DNA of 64,000 nucleotides from Spiroplasma endosymbiont of Cantharis nigra (GTDB taxonomy: Bacteria > Bacillota_I > Bacilli_A > Mycoplasmatales > Mycoplasmataceae), in the NCBI RefSeq assembly GCF_964019925.1, contig NZ_OZ026470.1:310001-374000 (forward strand). Direction: 5' to 3'. The notes under the pieces are model-generated. The model saw only the letters and a list, made by a program, of their open reading frames with translations, did no database searches and had not been told where the DNA came from. Position numbers and translations under genes: made by a program. Below are positions 8,816-28,412 of the stretch, one piece after another. Position 1 is the first letter of the stretch. Every line of letters starts with the position of its first letter.

Positions 8816-10573
8816 ATGAAAAAAGTTATTCCTGGATTATGAATAGTAAAATTTAGTTTTAAATTAATTATAAAAGAAAGATCATTTGTGATATTTAATG
8901 GACTATATTTTTTATTCTCCTTATTCATAGCAATTTACTCTGTTATTCAAAAAAATATTAGTAATTTCCTAATGATTTTTGATTACTATGTTTTATTAAC
9001 AATCTTTGTTATATTATTTATTCTTTGTTTAAGATTAACTCAATACTTTTATGTAGTTAAACGTGATGATAAAACCATGAATATAATTATTACACAGCAA
9101 CTTTCAAGAAAGAAATTGTTTTCTTATCAGTTTATGGCGTTTATATTACTAATTTTTATAAATTTATTTATTAGTTATTTATTAATAAATATTATAAATA
9201 TGCTTTTTCTACTAGAAGTTAATTTATTTTTGTTAAAGATTACAACAACTTATTTAGTATACTCATTAATTAGTTGTGTATTTTTAATTAACTTCTTTTT
9301 ATTAATTTCTTTATTTACAAATATTCAAGTTTCTACAATTGTAGCTACTTTAATACTTGCAAGTACTTTTATTAGTAATCTTCCTTATACATTTTTAATT
9401 CAAGGAGAAGAAAGTAAAAAGATTTCTTTATCTTATAAAGGCAGTAATACTATTTTTTCTGTAAATGAAGTCTATGATAGCTATGATTTAAAAAAACATG
9501 TTTTAAATAAGCAATTAAAATATCCAAACTTGAGTTTTTCTATTTATGATGATTTTATTAAAAATAAATATGAGACAGATCCAAACTCACTTACTAATAA
9601 TTTTGATACTGATAAAAATATTCAAAACAGATTACAATTTTGAATAAAATTGGGAATTATAGAAGAAAAAAATAAAGTTGTTGAATTAAAAACTCCAACT
9701 AAAATTGTTGGAGTTAACAGTAATTCAAAAATTGCAAAGTGAAAGGGTGACGAAATTACATTTAAATTTCAATTAAAATATAGATTTTTATCAATTGAAG
9801 AGTTAGAAAATAAAATAAAAAGTAATGAATTTGATGAAGAGAATATAAAAATTGTTGAAGAATTTATTAGTTTTACAAATTTTATAACAACTAAATTCAG
9901 TGATTTTCAAGATAAGTTTTCTAACTTATTTGATACCTTTATTTTATTAAGTGACCCAGATAACATTGATAAAAATTATATTAAAAATGTAACAAATCCA
10001 GAAGAAGAAAACTTATTATTTGAGAGTAAAAACTTAACTGAATTTTATCAAAGCTACTTTGCTTATTCAAATAACAAACTAGTTTTAGAAAACTCTAAAG
10101 TTGAAAATTTAGTTGAAGATGAATTGTTCTTTCCTACAATGTTAAGTGCAAGAATACTAGAAAATTATTTTATACGTTATACAAATAATATGGTTATTTT
10201 TGAGAATAGCACTGTTATAAAAGATGAAAACTGAACTAAGTATTCAAAATCAAGAAAAACTTACAGTATCTTTTTTCAAATGAACTTTATTTCAAATATG
10301 ATGCAAAATTATATTTATTATGGTGGAAGAAACTATGATGATATGTGATTTGAACCTGAAAGTTCAAGTAAAATAATTTTTAATAAGCAAGATAATTTGT
10401 TTATGGCTAAACCAACATATACGATTAAACTTAATGAGAGAAATGCCATTGATGAAAAGACATATAATAATTTTATTGCTCCATACTTTTATATAGTACT
10501 ACAGTTAGCAATAGCAATTATTAATTACTATGTAGCAAAAAATAAATTTAAAAAATTAGATTTGACAGGATAA
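8816..10573 (+). CDS. ABC transporter permease with large external domain, cassette 1
   Basis: A 585-residue membrane protein. Hydrophobic segments lie near residues 25-45, 55-80, 100-130, 145-175 and 178-200. A hydrophilic domain of about 350 residues follows, then one segment at about 557-575. With an N-in start the large domain would be outside the cell, where it could meet the lipoprotein. Conserved family signatures include YYVLLTIF in segment 2, LPYTFL after segment 5, and RILENYF and WFEPE late in the external domain. It is followed after 6 bases by the ATPase gene. It is the most divergent permease of the set. The start is ATG with only a weak ribosome binding site (TTGGAT). The fold class is uncertain; it resembles ABC exporters more than importers. 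Confidence 0.85.
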
Positions 10574-10579
10574 TTAAAT

Positions 10580-11503
10580 ATGGAAGAAATTATAAAATTT
10601 GATAACTATACTAAAAAATATAAAAAGAAAGTAATTGGACCTTTAAATTGTTTAATTAAAAGGGCTAGAATTACAGCATTACTTGGAAGTAGTGGAAGTG
10701 GAAAGACTGTTATTTTAAACTCATTATTAGGAATAATAAAAGATTTTAAAGGAAACATTGAAATTGAAACTAGTTCAAGAAAATCGGGAAAGTATTTTTT
10801 AGTAAACAAAAATATTGGTTATTATACTCAAATGGATTTTTCTTTGTATGTTGTTAGTGCATATAAATTTCTTTTAGATATTTGTATAATGATGGGTATT
10901 GAGAAAAAAGAATCAGTTAAAAAAATTGAGTATTGAATGAAATACTTTGATATTTGAGAATCAAAGGATAAATCAATTAGAAGTTTTTCATGAGGAATGA
11001 AAAATCGAATGAATTTAATACTGTGCTTTATTAAAGATCCAGAAATTATTATATTGGATGAACCTGGAGCAAACCTTGATTCGTATTGAAGAAATAAAAT
11101 TAAGACTTTATTAGTAGAGGCTAAAAAAGCTGGAAAAACTGTTGTGATAACTGTTCATAACATTGATGAAATTGCAGATATTATTGATGACTTCATAATT
11201 ATTGATAATGGAAAAAATATATTTAGTGGTTCTACTGAAGAACTAAATGTTTATGCCAAATATAAGTTATATGTAAATGAAAAGTTTGATGAAAAAGACT
11301 TTAGAACTTTTTTAGAGGAATTAGGCATAAAGACATTTAAATATGATATTGATGAGAATTCATTAGTAGTGGCAATTGAAAATTTTAAACAAATAAATTA
11401 TTTATTTTTATATCTAATTAAAAATAATTTGCCAATAAAAAACTTGGTTAAATTACCAATAAATATGGAATCTATTTATAAGGCATTGGAAGCAAAAGAG
11501 TAA
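10580..11503 (+). CDS. ABC transporter ATPase, cassette 1
   Basis: A 307-residue nucleotide-binding subunit partnering the permease 6 bases upstream. Walker A is GSSGSGKT (36-43). The Q-loop region is YYTQMDF. The signature is SFSWGMK (135-141) in place of LSGGQ. Walker B is [13 protein letters not shown] (Asp160, catalytic Glu161), and the switch His is in TVHNIDE. After the ATPase core a family-specific C-terminal domain of about 80 residues follows ([26 protein letters not shown]). Three TGA codons code Trp, including the one in the signature motif. It should power the permease; the substrate is unknown. Confidence 0.92.
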
Positions 11504-11830: not shown

Positions 11831-13180
11831 ATGAAATTATTATTAAGTTTACTTGGGACAGTAATAATACCAAGTGCCTCAATATCAAACATAGTAGTTA
11901 AAGAAGAAATACAAATTAATCATAATACTTATAGATGAACAGAAATGACAGCATCAAAAGTTAAATTCAATAATGAAAGGTTAATGCCTAACATTGACTA
12001 TTCAAATAAAACAGCTTTTATTGAGAATTATGATATTTGAGATAGTTGAGCATTAATGAATAATGATGGAAGTGTAGCAACTGTAAATGGTTATCAAATA
12101 TGATTTGCTTTATCAAAACCAGCTGATGGTAGTGGGGAAACAAAAATTATGTACTTTTATTCTAAAACAGGAAGTAATTGAATTCCAGGGGGATATGTTT
12201 TATATGAAAATTTAATTAAAGGTTCAGAAGAATGATCTGGCTCTGCTTTATATGATGAAAATACTAAACAAGTTAATTTATTTTATACTGTATCTAATCT
12301 TACTTATGGTAAGAACTGAAATCAAAGAATTGCTTTAGCAAAACTAAACTTAAATTTTGATAATATAACTCCAAAATTTGAGAAACCTATTTTTCACAAA
12401 ATAATTGCTGAAGCAGATGGGGACTTATATCAAACTCATGAAGCAGCTGAAGCAACAGGGTATGATAAACAAAAATGAGCTTTCAGAGATCCATTTTATT
12501 TTAGAGATCCAAAAACAGGTCAAGAGTATTTATTATTTGAAGGAAATACAGGTTTATTAACTGGTAAAGAAGGAGAAAGACTACCTGAATATACTGGCGG
12601 TTTTGAAGATTATCCTGACGATTATGATTTTGAGAGATCAAATATGGCAAATTCAGCTATTGGAATTGCTAAATTAGATTTAGATAGTGGAAATGTTGAA
12701 TTATTAAACCCTCTATGAGCTTCAAATTTAGTTTCTGATGAAACCGAAAGACCAAGTTTAATTTATAATAAAAAATTCGATAGATATTATATGTTTACAA
12801 CAACTCATGGATACTATAATATGAATTTAGCTCCAGGTTTAAATGAAAATGATAGTTTACATGGGTTTACATCAAAAGGAAGTTTATTTGGTGAAATGAC
12901 TCCTATAAATGAAGATGGTTTAATTTTATATTCTAAACCTGAAAAAATCGAAAGTGAAAATGAGATAATTTGAAATGAAAATTATGCTTATGCATGAGGA
13001 GTAATTTCAGATAATTTGGATTCAGAATATTTATTAACTTTAGCTTTTAGTAATTTTTCATCTGATGGTAAAAATGAATTGAAAAAAATAAGAGGAGCAG
13101 CTCCAAGTTTATTATTAAAAATTGTTGATGATAAAATATTAGTAGAGGATGAACTACTTCCTGCTCAAGTCATGAGATAA
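11831..13180 (+). CDS. Secreted GH68 levansucrase / fructosyltransferase-type enzyme
   Basis: A 449-residue enzyme of glycoside hydrolase family 68, which splits sucrose and transfers fructose to water or to a growing fructan. All three catalytic residues are in place: nucleophile Asp71 in IWDSW, transition-state Asp220 in FRDPF and acid/base Glu306 in DETERPS. EWSGSA and FALSKPADG also match the family. The length is close to Bacillus SacB. The N-terminus (MKLLLSLLGTVIIPS) looks like a short signal peptide without a lipobox Cys, so export into the medium is likely. The start ATG follows GAAGGG. The next genes are an RpiR regulator, a sugar PTS and a 6-phospho-glucosidase, so it belongs to a sugar-use island. 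Whether it makes polymer or only hydrolyses cannot be told from the sequence. Confidence 0.9.
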
Positions 13181-13224: not shown

Positions 13225-13256
13225 AGTTCCAGTTTTTATAAAGTTGGAACTTTTAA
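13225..13256 (+). terminator. Terminator after the GH68 gene
   Basis: AGTTCCA and TGGAACT pair across a 13-base loop and are followed by TTTAATTTT. Confidence 0.7.
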
Positions 13257-13375: not shown

Positions 13376-14110
13376 ATGAAATCTGTTCTAAATCAGTTAT
13401 TTATTAATATAAATATTAATCCAAATTCTGCTAATAATGCTATTTCAAAGATTTTATTAAAATCCTATTTAACAAAAGTTATACCAAGTATTAAAGAATT
13501 AGCTAAGTTATCAAATGTAGCTGAGTCTACAATTTCTAAGTTCTCTATTTCTCTAGGTTATAAAGGATATAGAGAATTAATTTTTAAAATAAAATTAGAG
13601 ATATCTGATCGTGAAACTAAGCAAAATTTGGACAGTTCTAATAAAAATTATTTAGATTTTGAAGCGGACATAGTTGGCGCTATAAAAGAATTTAGAAGTT
13701 TTGAAAATAAAATTATAAATTCAAAAATAAGTATAAAAAAATCAAAAAAAATATATATATTTTCTTCTTATCAATTTCAATTTGAATCCTTATTTTTTGC
13801 TGAATTATTAAGAAGAAATGGAAAAGAATGTGTCTATTACACTCAAATGCTTGATCAAATTAATCAAATAGCAAAAGTTGATGAAAATGACTTTGTTATT
13901 TTTATTGTTGGTGGACAAGATACTAAAACTTTGGAAATGATTTTAAATGACTTTTTATATAGTAATTATTTAGTATTAAGCACACATTCAAAAGTGAATG
14001 AATTTAGTAATAAGGAAAAAATTATATGTATTGATTCAAAAGATCTAAAACATCTTTATGAGTATAGAAGTTTTATTTTAAAATATTTATTTTTACAACT
14101 TTGTAATTAA
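13376..14110 (+). CDS. RpiR/MurR-type transcriptional regulator, module 1
   Basis: A 244-residue regulator with an N-terminal helix-turn-helix (about 32-75: IKELAKLSNVAESTISKFSI, GYKGYREL), typical of the RpiR family. A divergent sugar-phosphate (SIS-like) domain follows (KKIYIFSSYQ, DFVIFIVGGQD). Such proteins sense a sugar phosphate and control neighbouring sugar genes. The ATG follows AAAGGAGC. The PTS gene begins 104 bp downstream, so it probably controls that operon. A paralogue at 54806 has the same place in module 2. Confidence 0.85.
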   Translation: MKSVLNQLFINININPNSANNAISKILLKSYLTKVIPSIKELAKLSNVAESTISKFSISLGYKGYRELIFKIKLEISDRETKQNLDSSNKNYLDFEADIVGAIKEFRSFENKIINSKISIKKSKKIYIFSSYQFQFESLFFAELLRRNGKECVYYTQMLDQINQIAKVDENDFVIFIVGGQDTKTLEMILNDFLYSNYLVLSTHSKVNEFSNKEKIICIDSKDLKHLYEYRSFILKYLFLQLCN

Positions 14111-14214: not shown

Positions 14215-16806
14215 ATGGAAAAAAATATTAAAATTTATTCTCCCATAGATGGAAAAATAAAACCATTAAAAAATTTAAATGATGGTGTATTTTCTGAAAA
14301 TATGTTGGGAGAGGGAGTTTACATTGAACCAACTTCAAGTGATTTTTATTCACCTTTTGAAGAAGGAACAGTTGCTCAAATATTTCACACTAAGCATGCT
14401 TTTCATTTTAAAAGTAAGCAAGGACCAATAATTCTTATGCATATTGGTCTTGATACAATTCATTTACAGGGAAAACCCTTTGATGTTAAAGTCAATGAGG
14501 GAGATTCAATTAATTTAAAAACAAAAATTGTTACTGTAGATTTTAAGCTTTTAGAGGAAAAAAACATTATCAAATCTACACCAATAGTAATTGATTTAAA
14601 TGAATTTAAAGATTGAAGTTTTAATAGTAATATTCAAGGCGAAAAGTTAATAAAAAGAGGAGACTTAATTGGAGAATTAATTTTTAAAGAAAAAACTATT
14701 GAAAATTCAACTGTAGAACAAGTTCAAAAATTATTAAATACTAAAAATAAATATGAACAAGCAGCAGAAGATATTTATAAAGCAGTAGGAAAAAAAGACA
14801 ATTATAAACAAGTTTATAATTGTATGACTAGATTGCGTTTTGAAGTGCTTAATACTAAAAAAGTAGATGTTGAAGCAATTAAAAATATTAATTTAGTTAA
14901 AGGTATTATTTGAGCTGGAAATCAAATCCAAATTGTAATTGGAGGAGAAGTTTATAAAGTTAAAGAGGCTGTAGATAATGTTGCTCAAGGTATTACTACT
15001 AATAAAACTAAAGTCAAAACTATAAATAAGCAAAGTTTGGCTAGAAGATTTATGATTGCTGTTGGAGCAATTATAATGCCATCATTGCCAATAATGATGG
15101 CTTCAGGTCTATTAATGGGACTTAAAACTTTGCTTGTAATGGGAAATGTAATTACTGATATGAAATTTGGTACGGGAGCTCCTATTGATATGAATGTGGA
15201 TTTATTTTCATTATTTATTAATATTGCTTCAGAAACTGGACTAAAACTAATGGGAATTTTTATTGGTTATAATGCAATGAAGTGATTGGGGGGACCTACA
15301 ATAATGCAGTTATTGCTTTCGCTATTAATTGCAGGAGCTCCTTTAGGTTTGGGTATACAACCTGATTTAACATTATTTAGTATTAATGGTTTTGTTGTTA
15401 AAGCTGCATTATATACTTCATCAATTATTCCCCATGTTGCTATGGCATTTATTATCTTTTATTTAGATAAATGAATTAAGGTTTGAATGCCTACTTCAAT
15501 TGATGTTTTATTTAGACCCTTATTAATAGTTATTATTGCTTATGGATCAATGTTCTTTGTATTAGGACCAATATTATTTTTAGTAGAACAATTTATGGCG
15601 TTAATAGTTGGTTATTTATCACAAATTCCTTATGGATTTGGAGTTATGATATTTGTTGCAGCTTGGCAACCATTGGTTCTTACAGGAATGCATGTACCAG
15701 TTGTTATGACTGTAGTTATGCCAATGGCAGCGGGTCACTTTACAACTTTAATGGCCATTAACATCGCTGTTTTTGCTCAAGTTGGTGCAGCAGTTGGGGT
15801 GGCTATTAGAACCAAAAATGGTCAGTTAAGATCAACTGTTATTGCAGCTATTCCTGGAGGAATTGTTGGAGTAACTGAACCAATACTTTATGGAATTAAC
15901 TTACCAAAAATGCGACCCTTTATTTCAGGAGTTATTGCAGCAGGGATTTTTGGATTATTATCTGGTTTAATGGGAATTGAAGCAAGAACTTCTGGAGGTT
16001 TAGGGATCTTTGGTTTTACAGGGACACTAATGGAACCAAGATATGTTGAAACAGTAATTAATGGAGTAAAATTAATGCCTTCGGCAAATAATATTTTTAC
16101 GGGAGTTCCTAACTCTGCAGTCTTAAATTGTGTTTTATGATTTATTCTTAACATTGGAGTAATTCCAGCAGCGGCAGCAGTTGCCTACCTAATGTATATT
16201 GAAAGAAAAAATGAAATAAAATCTGTTAAATCTGCAAATAAAGCTCTTTTAAAATATTATAGCTTAGCTAAAAAAATTAAAATTGATGTTGCAAAAACAC
16301 AATTGCAAGAAGAATTAAAAAAAATAGACTCGGTAATAACTTTAGAAGATAGTTTAAGATCAAAAGAAATTGAGAAAGTCTTTATTAAGATTAATTCCTT
16401 GGAATCCAAAATAGATATTTTATCTTCAAAATTAGAGAAGAAAAAACAGTCTTTAATTACAAAGTTAGCAAAAGTTTCAAATAAGAAAGGTAATGAAACA
16501 AAGTTAAAAACTTTATTAGAGAATTATAAACAATTAGAAAATAATTTAAAACTTAAAGAGTTAAGTGAACAATTAGTAAAAGTTAAAACACAAAATGATA
16601 AAGCAATTAATGAGTTTAATAATTGAAAAAAAGAATCTTATAAAGCTATTAATACTGTTGTATTAGAAATAAGTCAAAAAGCTGACAATAAAGTATTGGC
16701 AGAAGTGGGAGATGTATATTACAATGCCATTAATGCCTTAGAAATTGGTTATATGTTAATTGATTCAAAAGATTTCTATATTAGTAAAAAAAGAATTAGA
16801 CAATAA
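14215..16806 (+). CDS. PTS sugar permease, fused IIA-IIB-IIC, beta-glucoside type, module 1
   Basis: An 863-residue phosphotransferase transporter. The order is IIA (1-130, phospho-His76 in LMHIGLDT), IIB (about 180-255, phospho-Cys203 in YNCMTRLRF), then IIC (about 270-660) with many membrane segments and the family signature GVTEPILYGINLP. A C-terminal extension of about 200 residues, rich in Lys, Glu and Leu, looks like a long coiled coil. BglP-type proteins usually run IIB-IIC-IIA, so both the order and the tail are unusual, but the paralogue at 55603 shares them. The ATG follows AAAGGAG. The 6-phospho-beta-glucosidase gene follows after 14 bases, which fits uptake of a beta-glucoside or cellobiose-type disaccharide as its phosphate. 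The exact sugar is uncertain. Confidence 0.92.
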
Positions 16807-16820
16807 AAAGGAGAAAATGT

Positions 16821-18236
<1,416 letters not shown>

Positions 18237-18471: not shown

Positions 18472-19419
18472 ATGAATAAAGTGAGTAAAAAAACATTAAA
18501 AGTGCTTAATATAATTCAAAAATTGGATGAAGAAGACTTTTTAACATTAAAATCAGTATTAAAAGATCAATTTTCAAAAGAAGAAATGGATTTTTTAGAG
18601 AATCAATATGCAGGAAGAAATTTTGTTCTTAAATCTTCTTCAATAATAAAAAGTAGTTCTTCAATTAAGGAAATATACAAATTAGAAATTGAAAAAATAA
18701 ATAAATTATTAAATAGTCAAACTCTTATTGAAAAAATAGGAGGACTTAAAATTTTATTTTATGGTAAAACAGGAACTGGTAAAACATCATTAGTTGAAGA
18801 AATTGCGTATCTTAATAAGCATTTATTATTTGAAAAGATAACTTTAGAAAGTATTTTAAGTTCAAAATTAGGACAAACACAATTAAACTTAATTTCTTTG
18901 GTAACAAATTTAAATTTAAAATATAAAAATAAAAAGGTAATTTTATTTTTTGATGAGTTAGATTCTGTAATTTCAAATAGACAGAATAAAAATGATGTTG
19001 CAGAACACGACAGAATTGTAGCATCTTTTATAAAATTTTTTGATGAACTGGATATTAATTATATTATTTTTGCAGCTACAAATATGATGGAATCAATTGA
19101 TATCGCTATTCAAAGAAGATTCAATATACATGTAGAAGGAAAATTATTCTCTGTTGAGACATTTGCAAAATTATACAATGATGAAAATGAAAATAATGAG
19201 TTATCTTTGAGATTATTGAACTCTACTTTTATTTTAAATGACGAATTACTCTTTTCACTTAGTGATTTAAAATCATTTGAACAGGAAGTAATTATTGATA
19301 CTGAGATTTATAATAAAGTTGATACTCTTCAAATTTTTTGAAATAAATTTAAAAATTTTCTGGTTCTTAGATCAGATGATGAAATATCTAAAAGAACTAA
19401 AGAGAGGCTTGGAGTATAA
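18472..19419 (+). CDS. AAA ATPase, IetA-like, partner of subtilisin
   Basis: A 315-residue AAA-family ATPase: Walker A GKTGTGKT (98-105), Walker B ILFFDELDS (Asp161, Glu162), sensor 1 AATN (201-204) and arginine-finger candidates RR (215-216). The N-terminal 90 residues form a helical region. It has no signal peptide. An in-frame GTG lies 12 bases upstream, but the ATG at 18472 gives the more usual start. The stop codon overlaps the start of the subtilisin gene (TAATG), so the two are translationally coupled. An AAA ATPase joined to an intracellular subtilisin is the architecture of the IetAS anti-phage system. The family assignment is by architecture and motifs only, and the symbol is left blank for that reason. 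Confidence 0.85.
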
Positions 19420-21551
19420 TGGCAGTTAAACTTAAAGCAACTAAATTTCAAGAGAAAGGTAATAGAGGAAGAATTGATAATAAATCTTTTGAAGAAGTAA
19501 ATGAAATTGTTCAAAAAAATAAAACAAAATTACTTTCAATTACTAAAAAAGTTGAAAATTTTAATTCAACAATAGAGGGTAAGGTTATATTTTTTATTGA
19601 ATATATTAATATAATTCCTCCTAAAACTAAAAGATTTATTTTTAATATTGACGGTAATCCAGAAAATATTTTAAATATTAAACAGAAATCAATTAGCTCA
19701 AAAAAAATTGATGGCAAAAGTTACATTAGAATATTTTATGAAATTAATAGCAATGAGTATAATAAGTTGATTTCTATGTTAAAAAAATTTCTAAACTATT
19801 CAGCTGAACTTTATGTTAGAGGAAAAGACGAGTATTTTTTGGCATGTATTATTCTTTGTGAAGGCTTCAGTCAAGAATATTACTCATATAGTGTTATAAA
19901 TAAAGCATATGTATCAACTCTTCCATTGCCTTGGGTTTTTGAAGATTTAGTATCTAGAAAAATTATTTCTAAAAATGATTTCAATTCAGATTTGAATTTT
20001 GGTTTTTTTACTGGAGAGCAGGTTAAGAAAATAAATGAGTTATATCCTTTTATGATTATTGAGGTTTTTAATTCAATGACTCTGTATGAATCACCAATCA
20101 ATATTTTGGACATGGATATAAAAGATAAAAATATAGAATTAGATAAACCAAGACAAACAATAATAGGAGTAATTGATTCAGGTAATAATTTACCAGAACC
20201 ATTTTCTAAATATATTATTGGTATTGAGGATTGAAGGGAATTTAAAAAATTTTCAAATAATGAACATGGTTCTATGGTTTCTTCATTATTAGTTGCTAAT
20301 GATGAATTAAATCCTGGTAGTGCAGATAAACTTGGTAATTTTTTTATTAAACATTTTGAGATGCTTGAACCAATTATAGAAGAAGGCAAGCCACAACTAT
20401 CATTTGAACACTTACAAAATAATTTGGAGACAATAATATCTCAAAATTCCGATATTCAAGTTTGAAATTTATCCATTGGTGGAATTAAAAGTCCTTATTC
20501 ACCTATAATGTCTAAAGTTGGAGCATTTCTTGATTATATTGCTAGAAAATATAATGTTTTATTTATAATATCTTCGGGTAATTTAAGAGAAAAGGTCTTT
20601 AATCCAATGGAGTCGTTATGTATGCCTGGTGATTCTTTAAATGCATTAACTGTAGGATCAATTCAAAAAGTTAAAAATAATATTGTACCTGCAAATTATT
20701 CTTCAATAGGACAAATCTTATATTTTGAAAAACCAGAGGTATCAACGTTTGGTGGTCCTGAAAATAGTGACAGTACTTCAACTGTTGCATATTGAAATGG
20801 TTTGAATTATGGAATAAAAGGTACCTCTATTTCTGCTCCAAGAATATCAAGAATTGCTGCACATTTAATAGAAGAAGGTTTTTCTCCTTTAGAAGCAAAA
20901 GCTAAAATATTAGCTATGTCTGTAAGAGAAAGACCTTCAAAAAAATCATCATCTTTTGGTTGAGTGGATAACTCTTTATTACTTAAACCAACATTGAAAG
21001 TAACTATTTCTCTTACAAATAAAAACCCTAAATATCTTGATATAAAAATACCTAAGGGAGTTACAGAAATTATTATTGGAGCCAGTCATTTTGTTCAACC
21101 TAATTCTATTTTTGGTGAAGAATACAGTATTCATAATTTTGATGTGGGATTAATTTGATATAATTCAGACGAAGAATCAAATAATCCGGAACACAAAGAA
21201 GTAACAAAAAAAGTAGGGGCAAAAGAAAAGTCAAATAATGATAGTAAGTATTTTAATGAAAAATTACTAAGATTAGAAGCAGGAAAATATTTTTCTTCAT
21301 CTAAATTTAGGTATCTTAAAGAAAATATTGATAATGCTAGATTAGATGGAATTTATCAAAAAAAATTTACCAATGATAATGCACAACTTGCTATAAGAGT
21401 GAAAAAATTAGATTTATTTGATACAAAAGAGGAACAAGTAGAATCGGTTGCAATTGCAATTTTATTAATAGGTAATGTTACAGAAAATGATTTCATTATT
21501 GAAAATAAGGCAATTGTTGAGTTAGAAGCTGAAGTAGAAATATATTCATAA
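19419..21551 (+). CDS. Intracellular subtilisin-like protease (S8), IetS-like
   Basis: A 710-residue serine protease with a complete subtilisin triad in order: Asp253 (IGVIDSG), His283 (NEHGSMV) and Ser470 (GTSISAP), with oxyanion Asn388 (ISSGN). About 240 residues precede the Asp, more than a normal prodomain, and about 220 follow the catalytic Ser. There is no signal peptide or membrane segment, so it should act in the cytoplasm, unlike secreted subtilisins. It overlaps the ATPase gene by one base. The ATPase presumably controls or feeds the protease. The likeliest role is defence against phage or plasmid invasion, as in IetAS. A housekeeping protease complex is the alternative. Confidence 0.87.
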
Positions 21552-25671: not shown

Positions 25672-27471
25672 ATTATTTTAATTAAAAATAAAATAAGTTT
25701 TATAGATATTTTTAATTATCAATTTAAAAATATTTTAAGAGATAAGTCTTTTATTATAATGTATTTTTTATCTATAAGTTTTTCTATAATAGCATCTATT
25801 GTAATTATGACAAAAAAAACTTCTGGAGAAGCAATAACAATTTTTAATTTTTATGTTCTTATTCATACATTTGTAATTATATTGATATTGATTTTAAAAT
25901 TAATTGGTTTTTTCTTTTATATAAAAAAGGAAGATAAAACTATTAATATTATTACAGTCCAGCAAATTGGTCGAACTCAATTATTTAATGCTACAATTAT
26001 TGTTATAGTAATATCTAGTTTAGCTTTGTTTTTAATAAATTTTATTTTAATAAATTTTATCTCATTTTTTGCAAATATGAAATTTGATGTTGTCATGTTA
26101 AGAGTTACATTGACATATTTAATCTTTTCTCTTGTTATTGTAATTTTATTAATAAATTTTATTTTATTTCTATATTTCATTTTTAATATTCAATTTGCAA
26201 CAATTTTAATTACATTAATTATGGCTTTTGGTTTCATTGCTTCTTTACCATATCAATTTTTATATACATCTGAAAAGTCAAAAAGTTTAGTTTTTGAATC
26301 GGATTCAAATGAAAAAGTTATTTTAATGGTGGAAGATATTTATGATGCTTATGAATTTCAAAGTAATGTAAACAAGGGAAGAATTTTATATCCTAATCTT
26401 AGTAATTTTATAAATGATAACTTTTTAAAGGAAAAAATGAGAATAAGTAATTTTAGTGAATTAAATAATATTGATAGGAGAATAGATATTTGAAAAGATT
26501 TAAATATTATTAAAGATAAACCTTTAAAAGTTGGATATGAAGGAAAAATAACTAGAACAAAAATTGGTTCAGAAATTGATGATTGAAAGTTTGGATCAAA
26601 AATTAAATTTGAAACTTATTTAAAATATAATTTTTTATCTTTGGAAGAATTATCGCAATTAATTGATAGTTCTGATAATGAAAATAAAAAAATATTAATA
26701 GAGTTAGAAGAATTTACAAATTACATAATGGATCATTATTTAGAATTTCAAAAATCTTTTTATACATTATTTGACGATTTTATTATTTTAGAAGATTGTG
26801 AAAATATTGAGAATGAAAATTTTTGTTGAAACAATTCAAATGGACAAAAGGAAAAACATGGTTATATTGAAAAAATAGATGATCAAGGTCGTAAAGATAA
26901 AAGGTCATTTAAATTAGAATATCTTTTAGAATTGTATAAAAATTATTATTGAAATTTAAATGGATTTACTTTAAATAGAGATGAAGCAAGTGAGTTTATT
27001 GAATCTTACATGTCAGATGGGGGATTATTTAATCCTTTAATGTTATCAGTAAGAATTTTAGAAAATTATTTTATTAAATATACATCAAATTTTGTTATTG
27101 CAACAAATTATTCAATTAGAGATACTTCAAGTCAATGAAAAAGTTATATAAAACCAAGAAAAAATTATGACATAATTTTAAATTTTAACTTTTTATCTAA
27201 TTTAATGTTGAATTATACTTATTATTCTGGTTTTAGTTATAACGACTTTTGATTTGAACCAAACTTTAACTCAAAAATTTCTTTTGAAAAACAAAAAAAT
27301 ATGTTTTTACCTTATACTACATTTACTTTAAAAATAAAAAATGATAGATTAGATCCTTATTCTTATAATTATTTTTTACCAGTTTACTACTATTTAGTAT
27401 TTCAAATTTTTATGAGCATTATTTTTTATGTAGTATCATTTATAAAATTCAAAAATATGGATTTAAATTAG
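25672..27471 (+). CDS. ABC permease with large external domain, cassette 2 (non-ATG start)
   Basis: About 599 residues: membrane segments near 26-46, 60-80, 108-138, 146-170 and 175-200, an external domain of about 350 residues, then a last segment near 570-590. An excellent ribosome binding site (AAGGAGG, 25661-25667) is followed by ATT ATT TTA ATT AAA in frame. There is no ATG, GTG or TTG before Met30, which lies inside the first membrane segment. Alignment with permease 4, which starts MKDIKENIS at an ATG, places the start at ATT 25672 or a neighbouring ATT/TTA codon. Family signatures are NFYVLIHTF, SLPYQFL, RILENYF, TYYSGFSYNDFWFEP and LPYTTF. It partners the ATPase 17 bp downstream. Confidence 0.85.
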
Positions 27472-27488
27472 CAGAAGGAAGCGAAAAG

Positions 27489-28412
27489 ATGGAGAAAATA
27501 ATTACTTTTAAAAACTTTACTAAAAAGTTTAAAACAAATCAAATTGGACCTATAAACTTTGATATTGAAAGGGGTTCAATTACTGCTTTATTAGGTGGTA
27601 GTGGTAGTGGTAAAACAGTTGTACTAAATGCCCTAACAGGAATTATCAAAAAATATAAAGGTGAAATTATAATAGAAAAAATTAATAGAAAAAATAGAAA
27701 ATCATATTTAATAAATAAAAGTATGGGTTACTACACTCAAATGGATTTTTCTCTTTATGATATTTCTGCATATAATTTTTTATACGATAGTTGTAAAATT
27801 TTTGGTTTGGCAAAAAATAAAATAAAAGAAAAAATTGAATATTGATTAACTTTTTTTGAACTATGAGATAAAAAAGATAAAAAGTTAAAAAACTTCTCAT
27901 GAGGAATGAAAAATAGAATGAATTTTATAATTTGCTTTATTAAGGAACCTGATATTATTATTCTAGATGAGCCAGGTGCCAATCTAGATTCAATTTGAAG
28001 AAATAAAATAAAAAACCTTTTAATAAAATTTAAAAGTGAGGGTAAAACAATAGTTGTTACTGTTCATAATATTGATGAGTTAGCAGAATTATTTGATGAT
28101 TATATAATACTTGAATCAGGAGCTATTATTTTTAAAGGCTCAAAAAAGGAATTGGATTTATATAATAAGTTTAAAATATTTTTTAGTGTTAAAGTTGATA
28201 TTAAAAAATTTAGGGACTTTATGAATTCTAAAAAAATAAAAACTTTTAAATATGATTCTTTAGAAAATTCAATTGTATTTGCTTCAAACTCTGCTGAAGA
28301 AATTAACTGAGTATTTTTATTTTTATTAAAAGAATCCGTTCCAATTAAAAATTTAATTAAATTATCAATTAGTATGGAATCGATTTATAAAGCCTTAGAA
28401 AAAAATGAATAA
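27489..28412 (+). CDS. ABC transporter ATPase, cassette 2
   Basis: A 307-residue ATPase with Walker A GGSGSGKT, Q-loop YYTQMDF, signature NFSWGMKNR, Walker [14 protein letters not shown] and switch His in TVHNIDE. The C-terminal family domain ends in SMESIYKALEKNE. It is almost the same as the ATPase at 35563, so cassettes 2 and 3 are recent duplicates. ATG after GAAGGAAG. It energises the permease just upstream; substrate unknown. Confidence 0.92.

Follow-up and report, generated by a model that had tools for sequence, protein, structure and literature searches.

We describe an intact, full-length gene for a glycoside hydrolase family 68 (GH68) enzyme, evolving under purifying selection, in the Spiroplasma endosymbiont of Cantharis nigra: an addition to an established enzyme family, from a host in which it was not expected. 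The gene lies in a stretch of 64,000 nucleotides (the window) from a complete genome of 1,237,520 bp, which bears the signs of a mollicute in its code (TGA read as Trp), in the LP_plasma and spiralin-type lipoprotein leader of the window and in its relatives. Our favored reading, held with reasonable though not full confidence, is that the product is an exported, probably membrane-held fructosyltransferase or sucrase, devoted mostly to hydrolysis and short transfer and encoded as a mobile accessory trait.

Table 1. Features of the window discussed in the text
Feature	Position	Strand	Basis or remark
ABC transporter ATPase, upstream neighbor	10580..11503	+	PF00005; syntenic in G020 and G088
G-rich leader before the start codon	11793..11822	+	several GGG runs; alignment with G020 and G106
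GH68 sucrose-acting enzyme gene	11831..13180	+	449 aa with TGA as Trp; PF02435, PDB 7bj4, SacB alignment
N-terminal export signal, residues 1-23	11831..11899	+	Spiroplasma-type, without lipobox Cys
D71 codon, nucleophile (SacB D86)	12041..12043	+	SacB alignment
D220 codon, transition-state stabilizer, RDP motif (SacB D247)	12488..12490	+	SacB alignment
E306 codon, acid/base, DETER motif (SacB E342)	12746..12748	+	SacB alignment
Intrinsic-terminator-like hairpin 3' of GH68	13225..13251	+	1 found, shuffle mean 0.4
RpiR-family regulator, downstream neighbor	13376..14110	+	PF01418
PTS EIIA-EIIB-EIIC, nearest beta-glucoside type	14215..16806	+	family searches
GH1, nearest 6-phospho-beta-glucosidases	16821..18236	+	family searches

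The window encodes an intact GH68 protein

With TGA read as Trp the frame is open over all 449 codons and uses TGA for 11 of its 11 Trp residues, whereas under table 11 the longest listed ORF inside the same interval is 60 aa. PF02435 (Glyco_hydro_68) is the sole Pfam family matched at E ≤ 0.001 (E = 2.8e-69; 234.5 bits vs a cut-off of 27), covering positions 25-413 of the 424-position profile; at the same threshold the GH32 and GH43 profiles were unmatched, as was PF08244, the GH32 C-terminal sandwich, in the Pfam search. An NCBIfam search with the protein gave no matches. Among PDB sequences phmmer found 34 distinct chains (best 7bj4, 4.3e-46), nearly all named levansucrase, inulosucrase or beta-fructofuranosidase, while two bear the depositor name glutamate 5-kinase. 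The Pfam and PDB matches together bear out the original prediction of a GH68 enzyme; placement in a GH43-, GH32- or GH130-like clan was looked for and not seen. An AlphaFold2 model computed from a two-row alignment was poor (mean pLDDT 45.7). Relative to the closest copy dN/dS is 0.11, and all six pairs of GH68 copies fall between 0.11 and 0.33, which indicates purifying selection.

GH68 is rare in the order

Of 298 genomes in the order, 4 match PF02435; 20 genomes of the genus include 3 carriers, and 392 drawn from the phylum likewise include 3. Among 14 controls Bacillus subtilis alone gave a match. At the protein level, 395 genomes of the class yielded those three carriers of the genus again, plus a single weak fragmentary match (7.4e-4). 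These draws overlap, and S. platyhelix is not in every one of them. The four carriers are the window genome (G000), G020, G106 and S. platyhelix PALS-1 (G025, NZ_CP051215.1), a species first obtained from a dragonfly (PMC7679083). The rarity expected of such an enzyme in this group is thus confirmed at four order genomes in 298.

Carriage by phages was considered and rejected, since phages gave no GH68 match and two Spiroplasma-specific peptide patterns found no relative among viral contigs. A scan of named genomes with the Spiroplasma-specific patterns, which say nothing on other donors, recovered S. platyhelix only. In the open full-text literature, judged by titles and the starts of abstracts, we found no report of a levansucrase, GH68 or fructan enzyme from Spiroplasma or Mollicutes; one levan-related item among the results concerns Brenneria (PMC8426549). 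Automatic annotation has likely already labeled Spiroplasma GH68 proteins in sequence databases.

The donor pocket is largely retained and chain-holding residues are replaced

Residues were aligned with Bacillus SacB, the reference sequence being taken from the record of a laboratory plasmid. The Asp nucleophile, the RDP Asp and the Glu of the DxxER motif are present in all four Spiroplasma copies, and EWSGSA of the window protein aligns with EWSGSA of SacB, so that the motif first noticed, like the three catalytic residues (SacB D86, D247 and E342), has its counterpart in SacB. Beyond the triad, W70, W135, S136, R219, E304, R307 and Y387 agree with SacB, and by this alignment the donor pocket is intact in nearly all its parts. 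Of the SacB calcium site (D241, Q272, N310, D339), two of four ligands are kept (N274, D303), while D241 and Q272 are changed to Gln214 and Glu247.

The residues that hold the growing chain in SacB, a Gram-positive enzyme of the polymer-forming type, are replaced. R360 aligns with H326 and N242 with K215, and K363 aligns with N332 beside a 3-residue insertion that leaves this last pairing unsure. Gram-negative enzymes also lack R360, the position being His in every Gram-negative and haloarchaeal row of our alignment but that of Sphingobium (Gln). Some Gram-negative GH68 enzymes with His at this place are known levan makers, and His therefore does not exclude polymer.

Published work bears on the same positions. 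Change of B. megaterium levansucrase R370, the equal of SacB R360, is described as giving short oligosaccharides only, and the same text places His at the equivalent site of Gram-negative GH68 enzymes (PMC6531494); N242 mutants are described as ending their products at tetrasaccharides (PMC7948499), and an enzyme from haloarchaea whose R360 counterpart is His (H290) as an inulosucrase (PMC8066391). Since R370 variants make short products and yet the H290 enzyme is an inulosucrase, His alone does not settle the product. From the replacement of R360 by His together with that of N242 we favor hydrolysis with short fructo-oligosaccharides as products; a thick levan matrix is less likely.

Sugar genes of the cell and the case for a fructan coat

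A gene run in the window genome comprises a regulator, a sucrose-type PTS EIIBC, ScrB and a fructokinase. The models for the sucrose PTS, ScrB and fructokinase score below curated cut-offs, so that 'sucrose' names the nearest family and is not proof; with that reading, the genome appears to encode intracellular sucrose use. It also holds three fructose-PTS EIIC matches. Its one GH32 gene is ScrB-like and without a signal, and no exported GH32 fructanase was found in the genome. A Spiroplasma transcriptome study reports that sucrose gene sets differ between members of the genus and suggests that the sucrose could come from nectar (PMC5726471).

The alternative that survives best is a true levansucrase or inulosucrase laying down a fructan coat or matrix around the wall-less cells. 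Such an enzyme would use just the complete pocket seen here, including S136, E304 and Y387, in a genome whose single, cytosolic-type GH32 leaves no exported fructanase to consume the polymer; but SacB R360, N242 and probably K363 have given way to H326, K215 and N332, and both the R370 changes and the tetrasaccharide stop of the N242 mutants cited above point to short products. We consider this alternative unlikely, at perhaps one chance in a handful. Rather less likely still is that a surface-tethered, mobile fructosyltransferase coats the cells with self-made fructan drawn from the dietary sucrose of the host, although, if true, the coat would amount to a sugar-polymer envelope for bacteria without a cell wall.

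Elsewhere we observed tandem arrays of 2-6 genes of GH32 size (about 510-570 aa) at L037 (G073), L038 (G177), L039 (G183), L040 (G118), L041 (G097) and L043 (G168). The array genes carry Spiroplasma lipoprotein or signal-anchor leaders, with the RDP motif in 19 of 19 checked and the ECP motif in 10 of 19, and their products are possibly surface fructanases or invertases. Mutual exclusion of GH68 and exported GH32 is not claimed: none of the six array genomes among the 20 is one of the three carriers, an outcome expected by chance about 1 time in 3.

The GH68 protein bears a probable export signal of Spiroplasma type

The leader of the window protein, MKLLLSLLGTVIIPSASISNIVV, is of Spiroplasma type and resembles the lipoprotein leaders encoded elsewhere in the window, except that it has no Cys at the lipobox. 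Assessed by eye and by hydropathy, it contains a hydrophobic stretch of 15 residues from residue 4 with a mean Kyte-Doolittle value of 1.97, and the export signal originally proposed is on these grounds probably correct. In S. platyhelix the GH68 leader ends in VVGC, and that copy is predicted to be a lipoprotein. The signal peptidase I profile PF10502 (Peptidase_S26) gave no match in the four carrier genomes and matches in 12 of 14 controls. As judged by this one profile, the window enzyme may therefore remain tethered to the membrane; it may be uncleaved, membrane-tethered or otherwise processed.

GH68 occupies three different genomic sites

Upstream of GH68 lie in a run the genes for a lipoprotein, an ABC permease (identified by position and hydrophobicity, as it matches no family) and the ABC ATPase. 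The gap of 327 bases to the ATPase gene and the hairpin behind GH68 suggest that GH68 is probably transcribed as a single gene. Membership in an operon with the downstream beta-glucoside PTS and GH1 genes was rejected, as G088 has those genes without GH68 and the hairpin follows GH68.

Gene order in G020, whose GH68 is 93% identical, is that of the window. In G088, which is sister to G000 and G020, the place of GH68 between the genes for the ABC ATPase and RpiR is taken by a lipoprotein gene (764281-762440), and GH68 was absent both from the 260 kb examined and from a whole-genome family search. The G106 copy lies elsewhere; the two genes that flank it have relatives next to each other in G088 (805544-804270 and 803834-802572). 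In G150, the sister of G106, relatives of these neighbors were not found in 136 kb save weak or paralogous ones, and no empty site was defined there. The S. platyhelix copy lies in a housekeeping stretch between a short-chain dehydrogenase gene and frr-side genes, frr being our reading of the sequence of its 181-aa neighbor. The four copies thus occupy three sites.

The pattern AGGGTGGGTT of the G-rich leader has one match in the window (shuffle mean 0.65 with one mismatch allowed). The leader precedes GH68 in a window of 23% GC, and similar leaders stand before GH68 in L024 and L025, so that two different genomic sites have it but S. platyhelix does not. It may be regulatory or form a G-quadruplex, and may have travelled along with GH68.

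Three further observations concern the surroundings. Lipoprotein, ABC permease and ABC ATPase modules are repeated at 8816-11503 and 25759-28412 (+ strand), with paralogues in G020, G088, G106 and G150. The G088 orthologue of the PTS gene matches in two adjoining pieces (761382-758794, within L104-L105), which suggests that it is frameshifted or split. Finally, AAA ATPase and subtilase genes at 18472-21551 (+ strand) match PADLOC IetA (1.3e-28) and IetS (6.4e-43) as an IetAS-type defense pair, which is absent from the syntenic G020 stretch and from the G088 stretches examined.

Probable transfer between Spiroplasma lineages, and the outside origin

GH68 identity to the window copy is 93.3% in G020, 80.0% in G106 and 70.6% in S. 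platyhelix, set against PolC identities of 97.5%, 84.0% and 48.1%. Between the window genome and S. platyhelix Ffh is 47.9% and the best fructose-PTS protein 52.9% identical. The GH68/PolC ratio of pN falls from 2.7 for G020 to 1.2 for G106 and 0.57 for S. platyhelix. When GH68 presence is mapped on a PolC tree comprising 25 genomes, no fewer than 3 changes are required, a count as low in 68 of 500 shuffles, so that the carriers are not clustered beyond chance. Synonymous distances were dropped as a transfer test because sites are saturated.

Vertical descent from a carrier early in Spiroplasma history, followed by repeated loss and without transfer between lineages, would account for the single clade formed by the four copies (100/100) and for the course of GH68 divergence in G000, G020 and G106, which tracks that of PolC (80% vs 84%) and makes inheritance with losses possible within the genus. 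It accords poorly with the identity of 71% to S. platyhelix for GH68 vs 48% for PolC and Ffh, with the scatter of the four carriers over the PolC tree and with the three sites, and we give it only a small chance. The S. platyhelix identities, the pN ratio and the scattered carriers together support transfer, and on comparison with three proteins (PolC, Ffh and the fructose-PTS protein) GH68 has probably passed between distant Spiroplasma lineages. The acquisition first proposed from the window alone is, in the sense of mobility, probably right, given also the patchy presence and the lipoprotein gene at the G088 site.

The source outside the genus was approached with a tree of 25 proteins, its outgroups from plasmid records only (Arthrobacter was left out as it looked frame-shifted, L. 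plantarum was trimmed to 151-800 and Burkholderia was represented by the matched stretch). The Spiroplasma clade sits on a stem 1.62 changes per site in length and joins Bacillota (93/96) through a short branch (0.083). Constraining it to group with haloarchaea costs 7.6 log units and is not rejected (p-AU 0.0995). A Firmicute donor is not established, given the great length of the stem and a haloarchaeal neighbor that the constrained tree does not reject.

Discussion

In the mechanism that we propose, GH68 would have entered Spiroplasma from outside, been fully recoded to TGA as Trp and then moved among distant lineages of the genus as an accessory trait. The protein would be exported and would probably stay attached to the membrane. 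D71 would attack sucrose, giving a fructosyl-enzyme, with E306 donating a proton to the departing glucose, and the fructosyl group would pass mostly to water or short acceptors. Glucose and fructose would then be taken up by PTS, the enzyme working alongside the cell's own sucrose-type PTS, ScrB and fructokinase. The ecological setting first suggested, in phloem, nectar or gut, may apply.

Sucrose is the presumed donor. A different main beta-fructoside, such as raffinose or fructo-oligosaccharides, might be expected of a deep, separate lineage whose alignment shows loops of its own around H326 (THGYYNMN) and before RDP; against this, the fructosyl- and glucosyl-holding residues are mostly retained, and we think it improbable, slightly more so than vertical descent. 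That the protein belongs to another propeller family (GH32, GH43, GH130) or resembles GH68 by chance is contradicted by the sole, near full-length PF02435 match and by PDB matches that are GH68 enzymes, and can be set aside.

An exported sucrase of this kind would give wall-less bacteria with reduced genomes a means to split sucrose outside the cell, and perhaps to make fructan. Considered alongside the lipoprotein GH32 arrays, it suggests that beta-fructoside chemistry at the cell surface recurs in Spiroplasma-type Mollicutes as a trait exchanged horizontally.

Among known systems, the GH32 array enzymes of the same genus are alike in being likely extracellular beta-fructoside enzymes with Spiroplasma leaders, but belong to PF00251, and none of their arrays turned up in the genus members that carry GH68 (three genomes). 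The Gram-negative levansucrases (Pseudomonas, Pantoea, Rahnella) share the triad and His at the R360 place, whereas they have EWAGT for EWSGSA and Gln at E304 and form a separate clade. Haloarchaeal GH68 proteins are of equal size, single-domain and likewise carry His at the R360 place; they supply the best plasmid matches (30-36% identity to the window protein) and the best PDB match, 7bj4, deposited as a levansucrase and presumably haloarchaeal. Their rows differ by Ala for S136 and Gln for D303, and they stand apart from the Spiroplasma copies in the best tree, though the constrained grouping was not rejected. Finally, SacB of the Bacillus subtilis type differs at R360 (His in the window protein), N242 (Lys) and the calcium ligands D241 and Q272 (Gln and Glu) and is separated by a very long branch, but shares the triad, EWSGSA, the SDE-ER motif and an AN-AIG-like stretch, and belongs to the group nearest the Spiroplasma copies in the tree.
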